64,000 nt of DNA from positions 1,798,001-1,862,000 of the forward strand of contig NZ_FOZE01000002.1 of the NCBI RefSeq assembly GCF_900113225.1. The letters are read 5' to 3'. Position 1 is the stretch's first letter. Each line of letters starts with the position of its first letter. The DNA comes from Mitsuaria sp. PDC51. GTDB taxonomy: Bacteria > Pseudomonadota > Gammaproteobacteria > Burkholderiales > Burkholderiaceae_C. The notes below the pieces were generated by a model that ran no database searches, was not told the origin of the DNA, and saw nothing but the letters and a program-made list of their open reading frames with translations. Shown here piece by piece: positions 47,389-52,610 of the stretch. A program made the translations under genes and the position numbers.

Positions 47389-49230
47389 TCAATCGAAATC
47401 CCGCACACGCTCCCGCGTCACCTGGAGCGCCCGCTCGCTCAGCGCGAGAGCCGCCGAGTCAGCTTGGAGGGACGGGGGCAAGGCGAACTGGTCCAGCGCC
47501 GCCGTCATCGACGCCAGCATCTCGTCGATGGCGGCTTTCGCGTCGCCCGCCCGCAGGTCGGCGATCGCCGCCAGGGCCAGGAAATCGGCGCGGCGCAGGC
47601 GCTGGGCCTTGCCGTTCACCTTCAGCGCCATGGCGTCATGCTGGAGCCCGGGGAAGACGCGGGTCGTCAAGGTGTCGTAGACCGGCGCGAGCCGCACGTG
47701 CCGGAACGTGGCAGCGCCTTCCTGGGCGGTCTTGAGCATCGCCATGTTCTTGAGGTGCATGTCGCCGTCGCCGATCAGCCAGGCGAAGAGCGCCCGGCGC
47801 AGCAAGGTCATGATGTCCTCGTCGGGCGACGTCGACAGCGCGCGCACCGCACGGGCCACGCGCTCCATCGTGCCGGTGTACTTGTCCCTGGGATCGAGCG
47901 CGAGCACCGAGCACAGGTCTTCCATCGCCAGGAGACGGGTGTCGTCCAGCTGAAGGCGGATGTCGAAGCGCTCCACGATCAGCGCCGCCGGCAGGTCGTC
48001 GGGCATCGCGACAAGCGCGTGATCAGGGACCTCGAAGCCCACGCCGCGGGCCAGCCTCAGCCCGATCCACTCCGCCACCGGAAGTCCTTCGAAGCCGGCG
48101 GCACCTGCCGGCTTGAGGATGTGGGTGAAGGGCAGGTGCGTGGCGATCAGCAGCGTGCCGTCCGCCGCCAGGTGCATGGGGGCCTTGACCTGCACGCCTG
48201 ACAGCCGCGGCGTCTGCTGGTTCGCGAAGAGCTGCGCCAGGCGGTGGGCGAAGTCGGCGTCCATCGCGTCGCGCCGTGGCCCGGCGTAGTGGCCGCTGAA
48301 CATGCCGTCCCGCGTGAAGTCGGCCAGTCGCGTCGTCAGCCTGTCCTGCGGCAAGGCGGCCAGTTCCGCGCGTCGCTCCGAGATCGTGATGTTGGACATG
48401 TAGCGCTTGCCGCGCCGCAGGACGTCACGGTCGCTCGCGTCGTGCAGGACGGACTCCAGCCAGCCTTCCGGCAGCAGCGACACGATGAAGGGCGGCAGCC
48501 GTCCCGGCGTGGTCTGGCGGATCAGCGGCGGCAGCACCGGACCGGCGCTGCTGGCGTTCCAGCGCCATTCGGTGCCGTCATGGGCCAGGTCTCCTAGCGC
48601 AAGGCCATGCCAGGCGACGGTCAGGTCGAACGCAGCCTCATTGCGCATCGGGCCGTCCGACTGCTGCTTCAGGAAGCGTTCGGCGCCTTCGCCCTCGCGG
48701 TACCACTCGTTGTCGCGCGCCAGTGTCCACAGCGCATCGGCAGCGCGTTGCGCGTCGCCGTACTCCTGCACGAGTCGCGCGGCCAGGGCCTCGCGCATCG
48801 CCAGGTCCATCGACTGGGCGTGCTCGCTGCGCAGGCGAAACGCCTCGAGGAAGCGCTGGCGCAGGGAGGACACCGGGATCGGCAGCTCGCCCCATCCATC
48901 GGCGACCACGGCGTCGATCGTGGATGGGCGCGCCGGGGCGCGGTTCTGGACGATCTCCAGGCCGCGCAGCCGTGTGCGTTGACTGCGCTGCCCCGAGATG
49001 TAGAGGCGACCATCACGGGTCGGCGCGAGCAGCACGGCGCTCGCGGCCGAGAGAAAGGCGCGGGGGTAGAGATAGCGCGCGATGCGCACCGCATGCCGCA
49101 GGACGAGGTCGTCCGCGTCATCGCCGGCGTCCACGTAGATGCCGCGCATCAGCTGGATCAGTTCGCCTGTTTCCGCTCTGCGGTAGCCGCGGTTGGCGTC
49201 CAGGTTCTCGCCGACGAGGTAGAGGCTCAT
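47389..49230 (-). CDS. HipA-family kinase toxin with AbiEi-like N-terminal domain
   Basis: A 613-residue protein, about 170 longer than E. coli HipA. Residues ~1-115 resemble AbiEi-type antitoxin/regulator N-termini (GELIQLMRGIYVDAG, then PRAFLSAASAVLL, then RGLEIVQNRAP). From ~200 it is HipA: LTVAWHGLALGDLAHDG, LPPFIVSLLPEGWLE, the ATP-loop region LSGVQVKAPM (~343), THILKP, catalytic-loop WLIGDGDMHLKNMAM (~490) and metal-binding Asp in LAPVYDTLTTR (~517). HipA kinases phosphorylate tRNA synthetases and halt growth. The start at 49230 abuts a near-perfect palindrome. No separate hipB is seen. Domain 1 is my motif reading. Confidence 0.85.
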   Translation of the reverse strand: MSLYLVGENLDANRGYRRAETGELIQLMRGIYVDAGDDADDLVLRHAVRIARYLYPRAFLSAASAVLLAPTRDGRLYISGQRSQRTRLRGLEIVQNRAPARPSTIDAVVADGWGELPIPVSSLRQRFLEAFRLRSEHAQSMDLAMREALAARLVQEYGDAQRAADALWTLARDNEWYREGEGAERFLKQQSDGPMRNEAAFDLTVAWHGLALGDLAHDGTEWRWNASSAGPVLPPLIRQTTPGRLPPFIVSLLPEGWLESVLHDASDRDVLRRGKRYMSNITISERRAELAALPQDRLTTRLADFTRDGMFSGHYAGPRRDAMDADFAHRLAQLFANQQTPRLSGVQVKAPMHLAADGTLLIATHLPFTHILKPAGAAGFEGLPVAEWIGLRLARGVGFEVPDHALVAMPDDLPAALIVERFDIRLQLDDTRLLAMEDLCSVLALDPRDKYTGTMERVARAVRALSTSPDEDIMTLLRRALFAWLIGDGDMHLKNMAMLKTAQEGAATFRHVRLAPVYDTLTTRVFPGLQHDAMALKVNGKAQRLRRADFLALAAIADLRAGDAKAAIDEMLASMTAALDQFALPPSLQADSAALALSERALQVTRERVRDFD

Positions 49231-49233
49231 GTG

Positions 49234-49262
49234 ATTTTCTCGCACTTCAAGTGCGCGAAAAT
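49234..49262. promoter_or_regulatory. Operator-like palindrome 1 at the hipA-like start
   Basis: 29-base palindrome with 14-base arms and one mismatch, core TTTTC(T/G)CGCACTT, beginning four bases upstream of the start codon. A protein bound here would block translation initiation or transcript entry. It shares its core with a second palindrome 52 bases further upstream. Confidence 0.75.
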
Positions 49263-49313
49263 TACCAGACTGGCCGCCCTATCTCAAGATTCAGCGGTTG
49301 CGGAGCGGATATC

Positions 49314-49348
49314 GTGGTTTTCGCGCACTTGAAATGCGAGAAAACCAC
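49314..49348. promoter_or_regulatory. Operator-like palindrome 2 upstream of the hipA-like gene
   Basis: 35-base palindrome with 17-base arms and two mismatches, core TTTTC(G/T)CGCA(C/T)TT, centred 83 bases upstream of palindrome 1's centre (about eight helical turns). It lies ten bases after the hybrid-kinase stop. No T tract follows, and the shared core argues for a protein-binding site rather than a terminator. Confidence 0.75.
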
Positions 49349-49358
49349 GTCATGGCCA

Positions 49359-52300
49359 TCACCCCGCCGTCAGCCTCACCAGCACCTGCCGCAGCCGCTG
49401 CGCGTCGATGGGCTTGGTGAGGAACTCGTTCATCCCGGCGCCGAGGGCCTCGTCGCGCTCCTGCACCAGTGCCGCGGCGGTCAGCGCGACGATGGGCAAC
49501 TGCGCGGGGTCGTAGCGCTGGCGCAGCTGGCGCGTGGCCTCGTGGCCGCTCATGACCGGCATCTGCACGTCCATCAGCACCGCGTCGAAGGGCTTGCCCA
49601 TGCTGGCCGCCGCCGTCACCGCCTCCACCGCCTGGCTGCCGTCGCTGGCCTGCGAGACCTCCGCGCCCCACTGCTCCAGCATCGCCACGGCGATCATCAT
49701 GTTCACCGGGTTGTCCTCGACCATCAGGATGCGCCGCCCCGCGAGCTCCGCATCGTCCGCCGGCGCGCGGCGCTGGGCGCTCATCGGTGCGGGCGCGGCG
49801 GGCAGCGGCAACTCGGCCCAGAAGGTCGCGCCGGCGCCCGGCTGGCTCTCCACGCCGACCTGGCCGCCCATCAGCGTGGCCAGCTCCCGGCAGATCGACA
49901 GCCCCAGCCCCGTGCCGCCGTAGCGGCGCGTGGTCGATTCGTCGGCCTGGGTGAAGGGCTGGAACAGCCGCTCGTGCATCGCCTCGGCGATGCCGGGGCC
50001 GGTGTCGCTGACCTCGATGCGCAGCCGCCGCTCGTCCAGCCGGCGCACCCGCACGGCGACGCTGCCCTGCTCGGTGAACTTCAGCGCGTTGCTCAGGTAG
50101 TTGCTCAGGATCTGGCGCGTGCGCACCGGATCGCCGATCACCCAGCCGGGCACCGCGTCCTCCACGTCGATGCTGAAACCCAGCCCGCGCGCCTGCGCCA
50201 GCGTCAGGTAGCCCATGCGCATGGTGGCGAGCATGTCGCGCAGCGCGAAGGGCACCGTCTCCAGCGTCAGCCGGCCGGCCTCGATCTTGGACAGGTCCAG
50301 GATGTCCGACATCAAGCCCGACAGGCTTTCCGCGCTGTCCACCATCTGGTCCAGGTAGTGGCTGCGGGTGTCGCCGGCCAGGTCCGGCTGCTGCAGCAGC
50401 CGCGCCAGGCCCACCAGGCCGTTGAGCGGCGTGCGGATCTCGTGGCTGATGTTGGCCAGGAAGGCGCTCTTGGCGCGGTTGGCCGCCTGCGCCTCGTCCT
50501 TGGCCTGCGCGAGCGCCGCCTCGACGCGCCGGCGCTCGGTGACGTCCTCCATGATCCAGATCGTGCCGCCGCGGCTGGGGTGGTTAGGGTCCACCGCGCG
50601 GGCCAGGATCCGGCACAGGAAGCGGCTGCCGTCGCGGCGCCGCATCAGGCGCTCGGCCTCGACCTGCTCGCCCGCGGCCAGGCGCGGACCGAGTTCGCGG
50701 CCGACCGCGTCGTAGTCGTCCATGCCCGGCCACACCACGCTGCCCGGCTGGCCGATCAGCCCGCCGGCGGGCCAGCCGAACATCTCCTCCACCAGGCGGT
50801 TGGCCTGCACGAAACGCTGGTCGCGCGTGAGCGCGATGCCGATCGAGGCGTTCTCCAGGATCGCCGCGTGGACCAGCCGGGTGCGCTCGGTGTCGCTGAC
50901 GTCACGCCCGTTGACCACCAGGTAGGACACGCCGTCGAGCACGAACGGCGCCGCCGACAGCAGCATCGGGATCGCCTGGCCGCGCCGGTTCACGAAGGTG
51001 GCCGACATGTCGCTGACGCGGCCCTGCTGGCGCAGCGCCTCGATCAGCCGCTCGCGGTCTTCCATGTCCTGCCAGATGCCGACTTCCTCGGCGGTGCGGC
51101 CCAGGACCTCGTCGGCGCTGTAGCCGCTCATCGACTCATAGGTCTTGTTGACCATCACGTAGCGGCCGCTGACGGTCTCGGTCAGGGTGACGACGTCGGG
51201 GCTGGTCGCGAACAGGTGCGACAGCAGCGCCTCCGAGCGCCGCAGCGCCTCCTGCGCGCGCGAGGTCTCGGTCTGGTCGATGAAGAAGGACAGCGTCGCC
51301 GGACCGGTGGCCGCGTCCACGCGCACGCTGGTGGCCTGCACCAGGCGGCGTCGGCGCGACAGGGTGCGCAGCCGGAATTCCGTCATCGGCAGCATCGCGC
51401 CCACCGGCAGCGCTTCGATCTTGGCGGCGCGCTGGCGGGCGCGTTCCTCGTCGCCGGGCTCGTAATGCGAGAACAGGTCCTGGCCGATCATCGACGAGCG
51501 CTGGGTGTAGCCGAACATCGCCATCGCCGCCGGATTGGCGTCCATCACCCGGCCCCAGCGGTGCAGCACCAGCGGCGAGGGCGAGCGGCGGAACAGCTCG
51601 CGGTAGCGGGTCTCGGTGGCCACCATGGCCTGCTCGGTCTGGACCTCGTCGGTGACGTCGCGGCCCACGCCCCAGTAGCCGCGGAAGTTGCCCTTGGCGT
51701 CGAAGCGCGGCTCGCCGCTGATCGAGACGTAGCGCAGCGTGCCGTCCTCGGCGGTGCGGCGCATCACCAGGCCGCGGAAGGGGCGGTGCGATTCGAGGTC
51801 GGCGCGGTGCGCGTCGAGCTCCTCGTCGGACAGGCCCAGGTGCTCGATCTCCCAGGGCGCGCGGCCCAGCCGCTCGGCGATGGACAGGCCGGACGCGCCG
51901 GCGTGGTGCTCGGCCAGGTGGGTGAAGCGGAACTGGCGATCCATCTCCCAGTACCAGTCCGCCGCCATGTTGAGCAGGTGGCGGAAGCGCGAGTGGCGCT
52001 CGTTGACCTCCTGCATCGCGCGCCGGATCAGCTTGGCGGTGCCCAGGCCGACGACCAGGCCGGCGCTGAGCAGCAGCAGCTGCGTGATCAGCCGCGCGGT
52101 CAGGCCGACCGGCGCGGTGCCGACGTGGATCCAGCCGCCGAGCTCGGCCGATGCCAGTCCGCCCAGCGCCGCCAGGCCCAGACCGAACAGCGACAGCCCC
52201 GCGCCCAGGCCGATCATGCTGGTGCCCAGCGCGACCATCAGCCCCATGATCCCGAGGCTGGCGGCGTTCAGCCCCAGCTGGCGCGAGACGGCGAGCGACA

Positions 52301-52610
52301 GCGCCGTCGCCATCGCCAGGCCCATCAGCAGGAGGGTGGCGGCCGGGCCGCGGTCGGCGGGCAGCTTCCAGAGCATGGCCAGCGCGGCGAAGGTGGTCAC
52401 CAGCGCGAGCGCCGGCGGCACCAGGCCGCGCAGCGGCTCGGCCGCGCCGGCGCTGGCCAGCAGCAGCAGGCCCGCCAACCCGGACAGCAGCACGCACGCG
52501 GCCATGAACAGCCGCGCGGCGCGCCATTGCAGCGTCGCGGGCAGGCGGTCGCCGCGCGACAGCTCCTGCCCCACCAGACTGCTCAGATCGTCCTGGGAAT
52601 CCTTGCTCAC
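49359..52610 (-). CDS. Membrane-bound multi-PAS hybrid histidine kinase
   Basis: A 1083-residue sensor. The first ~190 residues hold about six membrane helices of MASE-like layout. Four PAS domains follow (starting [15 protein letters not shown], then [16 protein letters not shown], then [15 protein letters not shown], then [14 protein letters not shown]). A HisKA box is in [20 protein letters not shown], then HATPase ([26 protein letters not shown]). A receiver has the Asp in [15 protein letters not shown]. With both HK and receiver but no HPt, it needs an external phosphotransfer partner. It ends 128 bases upstream of the hipA-like start on the same strand. Confidence 0.92.

Follow-up and report, generated by a model that had tools for sequence, protein, structure and literature searches.

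The window (the whole stretch of 64,000 nucleotides of Mitsuaria sp. PDC51 DNA analysed here) carries a gene that probably represents a mobile single-gene Hip system, in which the three roles of hipBST (i.e. repressor, inhibitor and kinase) are united in one chain. This reading is drawn from comparison of sequences. The initial annotation had proposed a HipA kinase fused to an AbiEi-like domain; the observation was confirmed and extends further than was stated. The roles that appear to be joined here in one protein are normally divided among two or three toxin-antitoxin genes. The family would add a Hip organization in which repressor, inhibitor and kinase form one chain, occurring on plasmids and chromosomes, and it raises the question of how a toxin-antitoxin-like system is triggered if its antitoxin part cannot be broken down on its own, apart from the toxin.

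The gene and the kinase features of its product are located as follows.
47389..49230, minus strand: fused gene, 613 aa (ATG at 49230, stop codon at 47389-47391; open reading frame list and translation)
47500..48204, minus strand: HipA_C kinase core, residues 343-577 (Pfam E 2.8e-41)
48184..48213, minus strand: Gly-rich loop TPRLSGVQVK, residues 340-349, with S344 invariant and Arg at the HipA Ser150 / HipT Ser57 position
47746..47769, minus strand: catalytic loop DGDMHLKN, residues 488-495 (alignment of unique proteins)
47674..47679, minus strand: YD, residues 518-519, with the metal-binding Asp (alignment of unique proteins)

The product is a complete HipA/HipT-type kinase preceded by about 195 additional N-terminal residues (an alternative GTG start at 49245 gives 618 aa). 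The open reading frame, the full kinase and the motifs quoted initially were all recovered, and the window protein displayed the whole set of HipA-type Ser/Thr kinase features, namely HipA_C, the Gly-rich loop and the catalytic and metal-binding motifs. Conservation was assessed on 91 unique proteins, obtained after removal of two loci with internal stops (L020 and L021) and seven identical proteins; the near-copies L005 and L029 were counted as two, and L008, a partial match, was excluded. Residues D488, G489, D490, H492, K494, N495, Y518 and D519 were identical in 91/91. Among solved structures, the best match of the family profile was Legionella HipT (E 5.3e-28), and E. coli HipA was matched at E 6e-15.

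The autophosphorylation position (Ser150 in HipA, Ser57 in HipT) corresponds to residue 342, which was Arg in 90 of the 91 proteins and His in the last one, while S344, the equivalent of HipT Ser59, was invariant (91/91). Regulation based on autophosphorylation, if present, must therefore differ from that of HipA. This substitution speaks for a different reading, in which the protein is not a growth toxin but a signalling kinase that binds DNA, or a transcription factor, its kinase tuning the DNA binding of the repressor by phosphorylation in physiology or plasmid copy control. The lack of a recognised linked antitoxin gene points in the same direction; further evidence on both sides is given below, with the N-terminal domain, the operators and the distribution of the family.

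A HipS-like domain separates the N-terminal part from the kinase core.
48241..48642, minus strand: HipS-like domain / HipA N-subdomain 1, residues 197-330, limits approximate (HipS 7ab4_B, E 0.0051; HI_0666 7czo_A, E 0.0069)
48460..48471, minus strand: PEGW, residues 254-257, corresponding to the HipS Glu63/Trp65 motif (printed alignment, numbered by count; invariant in 91/91)

The similarity of residues 195-340 to the HipS protein from E. coli O127 (E 0.0051) and to HI_0666 (E 0.0069) was weak. This was also the case for Couple_hipA in Pfam, which reached E 0.096 on the window protein and was found in 9 of 17 family members (best E 0.022). Yet sequence alignment placed Glu255 and W257, both invariant in 91/91, at the positions of HipS Glu63 and Trp65, two residues that extend into the HipT active site in HipBST (PMC10627512). 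None of 28 other HipA homologues displayed Trp at the PEGW position; LLP[D/E] was readable in 12 of them and a looser pattern in 17. In the HipS of Legionella, position 65 is occupied by Ile (PMC9325769), so Trp is not universal among HipS proteins.

The N-terminal part is composed of two segments of different standing.
49030..49209, minus strand: residues 8-67, AbiEi-like, with the putative recognition helix, the RGIY wing and the beginning of the segment that follows (PADLOC AbiEi models; hhalign, 0/150 shuffles for residues 1-69)
48646..49023, minus strand: strongly conserved segment of unproven origin, residues 70-195 (column identity; AbiEi similarity non-significant)

Conservation of the 195 N-terminal residues (78% mean column identity, 69 rows) matched that of the whole protein (74%, 63 rows). 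A domain conserved as strongly as the rest is a further point for a signalling kinase that binds DNA. PADLOC AbiEi models were the top match in all ten N-domains scanned, mostly over residues 8-67 or so and with weak E-values (0.021 to 5.4e-5); in an earlier scan, one such model matched 15 of 17 members, and Pfam AbiEi_4 matched one of 17 (E 0.16). Alignment of the N-domain profile with 22 AbiEi proteins by hhalign gave a modest probability of 46.5%, with a score above all 150 column shuffles both for residues 1-69 and for the full N-domain. Two AbiEi subsets used singly scored 24.1 and 20.5, the top of 200 shuffles being 22.2. No credible HTH was found in an NCBIfam scan of 69 N-domains, and among solved structures the N-domain profile retrieved only two MutL entries (E 0.24). 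Just about ten residues lie ahead of the putative recognition helix, the matched part being helix 3 and the wing (residues ~8-67), so that the first two helices of the usual winged HTH are presumably lost or modified.

The AbiEi-like character that had been attributed to the N-terminus thus holds for the predicted DNA-reading part, residues ~8-67. For residues 70-195, 13/150 shuffles scored as high, so that similarity to an AbiEi antitoxin domain was not significant there. This is the segment where such a domain would sit, and the suggestion that the AbiEi part acts as antitoxin is thus unsupported. The HipS-like middle domain, with its invariant PEGW, appears the likelier built-in inhibitor.

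The interval first delimited reached 49348, and positions 49231-49348, upstream of the ATG, contain two near-identical palindromes that had been left unmentioned.
49231..49265, no strand assigned: proximal predicted operator, a 35-bp palindrome abutting the start codon (palindrome search and family consensus)
49314..49348, no strand assigned: distal predicted operator, a 35-bp palindrome, 83 bp centre-to-centre from the proximal one (palindrome search and family consensus)
49282..49287, minus strand: candidate -35, TTGAGA (spacing conserved in the family)
49259..49264, minus strand: candidate -10, TAATTT, within the proximal operator (family pattern)

The operator consensus in the relatives was CTAACTTTCnCGTATnTGAAATACGnGAAAGTTAG. 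Of the 100 sequences scored (the window plus 99 loci), 94 had paired sites that each matched 17 or more of the 33 consensus positions, and 89 had them at 19 matches or more. The lower cut-off is lenient, since the best site in shuffled upstream regions reached 17 in 119/1000 and 19 in 11/1000. In terms of unique proteins, 86 of 91 had paired sites upstream, one pair (spacing 23) being probably false; the five rows where the second site was missing were L035, L050, L051, L074 and L089, the last having only 72 upstream bases. When palindromes were counted with a loose cut-off, two or more were found upstream in 87/100 sequences vs 18/99 inside genes; because of this gene-internal background, the consensus score with shuffles was relied upon instead.

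Centre-to-centre spacing was 61-65 bp in 80 of the 94 pairs, the others being 43, 53-56, 66-68, 83 (the window) and, once, 23. Most of these values are close to a whole number of 10.5-bp turns (4, 5, 6 or 8), a hint that both sites may lie on the same face of the helix. The promoter candidate of the window (TTGAGA-N17-TAATTT) follows a general form TTGnnn-N17-TAnnnT between the 35-bp palindromes. The -10-like hexamer inside the proximal site was mostly TAACTT among relatives, with a TTG 16-18 nt 5' of it in 80 of the 94 sequences; the distance was exactly 17 in 60 of these, and none of the remaining spacers in the range 8-39 exceeded a count of 8. The predicted layout is that of a promoter closed by its repressor. 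A search of the own genome with the operator pattern of the window, at up to 3 mismatches (more diverged sites would escape), did not reveal a third site. A wider regulon was thus not seen at that level, which stands against the signalling-kinase interpretation.

A single codon provided a putative link between the N-domain and these sites.
49195..49197, minus strand: codon of residue 12, predicted operator-reading residue (Ala here, Lys in 81/91; covariation)

Among 363 variable protein columns compared with 11 operator positions, on 86 rows with both sites (including the probably false pair of spacing 23), residue 12 and position -13 were the most strongly associated pair, at 0.512 in normalised mutual information, the runner-up being residue 12 with position -16 (0.284). 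Base -13 was C in 297/308 half-sites of K12 rows and T in 23/24 of A12 rows; rows with S12 (A 2, C 3, T 3) and R12 (C 2, T 2) were mixed. On a quick-method tree of residues 200 onward, i.e. with the N-domain left out, residue 12 and base -13 changed jointly in two independent places. One is the window; the other is a group from Alphaproteobacteria that comprises four copies on plasmids and a contig of Sphingobium (L012, L016, L017, L019 and L102). Two events are too few for significance in a sign test (p 0.5). Only columns 12, 23, 273 and 378 (4/613) displayed a rare residue common to the window and at least four members of that A12 group, and column 12 alone had it in 5/5 of the group vs 0/85 others. 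An ungapped by-eye alignment to AbiEi proteins, with RG(I/V)Y of the wing as anchor, puts residue 12 where the putative recognition helix begins.

Given the paired operators and this covariation, it is very likely that the N-domain recognises the promoter of its own gene, and the earlier proposal that the N-terminal part represses it is now strongly backed by both lines of sequence evidence. Palindromes by themselves do not name their reader, and another, host-encoded regulator might in principle read the operators in place of the N-domain. The operator, however, accompanies the gene across classes and plasmids, and base -13 shifted jointly with residue 12 on two occasions, which makes a host reader highly improbable. 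The operator code offers a ready experimental handle.

The proposed mechanism comprises three steps. The AbiEi-like helix and wing (~residues 8-67) would bind the two palindromes flanking and overlapping the gene's own promoter, residue 12 reading base pair -13 in each half-site, and repress transcription; the sequence evidence for this repression of the own gene is strong and the step is well supported. The HipS-like domain would then set Glu255 and Trp257 at the Gly-rich loop and restrain the kinase in cis, which is plausible by homology. Finally, the HipA/HipT-type kinase would phosphorylate a translation-related target, and growth would stop once the restraint lifts; kinase toxicity and its trigger are what we infer for this last step. 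Toxin and antitoxin being in one chain, faster breakdown of a separate antitoxin is ruled out as trigger, and release from DNA, a conformational change or cleavage would have to substitute for it. It is also conceivable, if unlikely, that DNA binding itself serves as a safety catch, the operator-bound protein keeping its HipS-like lid closed until carrier loss, replication or invasion arms the kinase. The twin operators may lie on one helix face, and the kinase would be freed with no antitoxin breakdown.

Whatever the trigger, we read the fused family as a single-chain analogue of HipBST on the strength of its sequence relationships. Its kinase core was nearest to HipT among solved structures, and its HipS-like domain displayed the Glu63-x-Trp65 motif of O127 HipS. 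HipBST differs in being encoded by three separate genes instead of a single ORF, in its Xre-type DNA binder instead of an AbiEi-like one, and in the S-psi-S before the Gly-rich loop, which is R-L-S in the fused family; that position varies among some HipTs too (PMC10627512). HipH/YjjJ is likewise a single gene with a predicted DNA-binding-type domain N-terminal to a HipA-type kinase and no linked antitoxin, and a cis-acting antitoxin was proposed for it (PMC8262856). Yet YjjJ has 443 aa and is remote in sequence; membership was rejected, the NCBIfam YjjJ score being 23 vs a cut-off of 401 and E. coli HipH scoring 3.9 bits against the family HMM. The recognition-helix/wing segment resembles that of AbiEi and Rv2827c (type IV), and two inverted-repeat pairs that overlap the Rv2827c promoter are bound by Rv2827c (PMC7319586), whereas the fused family has 35-bp palindromes at a spacing of mostly 61-65 bp and no AbiEii-like toxin gene was recognised beside the fused gene. 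HipA of hipBA shares the architecture of lid (N-subdomain 1) and kinase, but no Xre-type HipB gene was recognised beside the fused gene. HipL differs by its C-terminal HIRAN, which gave no match in 17 fused-family members.

A 2021 survey of 1,239 Hip kinases recognised ten gene organizations. It presents HipH/YjjJ as the family with N-terminal HTH, whereas its HipL family has a single gene and carries HIRAN; in the accessible parts of its text, none of the ten has an AbiEi-like N-terminal domain, the word 'winged' is absent and the sole 'abi' word is 'ability' (PMC8262856). A 2009 toxin-antitoxin survey pairs HipA with Xre partners, and COG5340 is absent from its accessible parts (PMC2701414). 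Toxin-antitoxin pairs joined in one chain are known in other systems (PMC4826407). In literature on HipA with AbiEi, COG5340/COG3550 or single-chain and fused forms, this fusion was not found in titles or abstract openings.

The survey of the fusion across genomes that had been suggested at the outset yielded the 91 distinct proteins mentioned above, a coherent and mainly proteobacterial family that is partly carried by plasmids, the aligned rows being 58-68% identical to the window protein. In a tree of 14 fused and 28 other HipA homologues, the fused proteins grouped together on a long stem with a support of 100 (quick method, some other branches being very long). The boundary with ordinary HipA was sharp: along 60 rows across 479 matching plasmid records, identity was ~57-62% over most of the length and then dropped below 37% over part of it, the single intermediate row (H30) being a broken copy. 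A scan of the genome collection with alignment A1 recovered 257 relatives among 314 pattern matches, the best 80 of the 257 being studied; with the single protein as query, the same collection gave no relative. When the N-domain profile was run against 398 genomes of the phylum, three full-length N-domains appeared, including that of the window, all in open frames of 618-629 codons, together with a few fragments in frames of at most 186 codons; an intact stand-alone N-domain was not seen among these genomes.

Distribution was patchy, with any match in 6/299 genomes of the same family (the own genome and a single partial match included) and in 2/369 of the same class (own genome counted). Among 72,556 plasmid records, 69 had one place covering at least 80% of the protein, many being near-copies. 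Such a spread, combined with plasmid carriage, suits a mobile toxin-antitoxin-like gene better than a signalling kinase without toxic function, and we consider the latter rather unlikely. The copies with internal stops, from Devosia and Mesorhizobium plasmids, differed upstream: L020 retains operators, whereas none were seen at L021. None of 50,697 phage records matched and one copy was found among viral contigs (L104:95-7024), near a DNA methylase, an HTH_36 protein and a weak Fic/DOC match (E 3.3e-4, below the Pfam cut-off).

The HipB partner, absent according to the initial annotation, was likewise not recognised among the three neighbouring genes scanned between 45 and 52 kb in the window: one for a hybrid histidine kinase rich in PAS domains, one for a protein that matched nothing in Pfam and one for a Band_7 protein. 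The large histidine kinase gene lies upstream (49359-52610, minus strand), its stop codon about 10 bases from the distal operator. In 11 intact annotated plasmid loci (L009-L012, L014-L019 and L023), whose gene tables are incomplete, there was no recurring named product directly adjacent and no annotated HipB-type gene directly adjacent in the same direction. An AbiEii nucleotidyltransferase toxin gene was neither found among the scanned window neighbours nor annotated in these 11 loci.

In 10 of the 91 loci (L005, L013, L029, L032, L034, L038, L039, L044, L045 and L091), a separate hipA-like gene lay no more than 1.5 kb away, accompanied in all except L091 by an HTH (HipB-like) gene. This raises the alternative of a HipA toxin that depends on a HipB-like antitoxin encoded elsewhere, the N-domain merely repressing, and HipB does rescue the toxicity of E. 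coli YjjJ/HipH in trans (PMC9948734). The cluster was nonetheless absent from the other 81 loci in the flanks compared (for 11 loci one of the two flanks was shorter than 700 bases, and a pair that has diverged could have escaped), and the HipS plug motif is already within the chain, so that dependence on a distant antitoxin appears distinctly improbable.

The commonest common neighbour, in 14/91 loci, was a gene that we take from its sequence to encode a release-factor-3-like protein; it lay mostly downstream (L005, L007, L025, L028, L031, L032 and others) and is perhaps a common insertion site. With no recurring adjacent product and such sparse common neighbours, the fused gene is, as judged from these loci, a stand-alone unit that is partly plasmid-borne. 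On one Sphingomonas plasmid (L016:6097-7180), the fused gene is followed downstream by a pair whose annotations are MbcA/ParS/Xre antitoxin and, for the other member, RES-family NAD+ phosphorylase.
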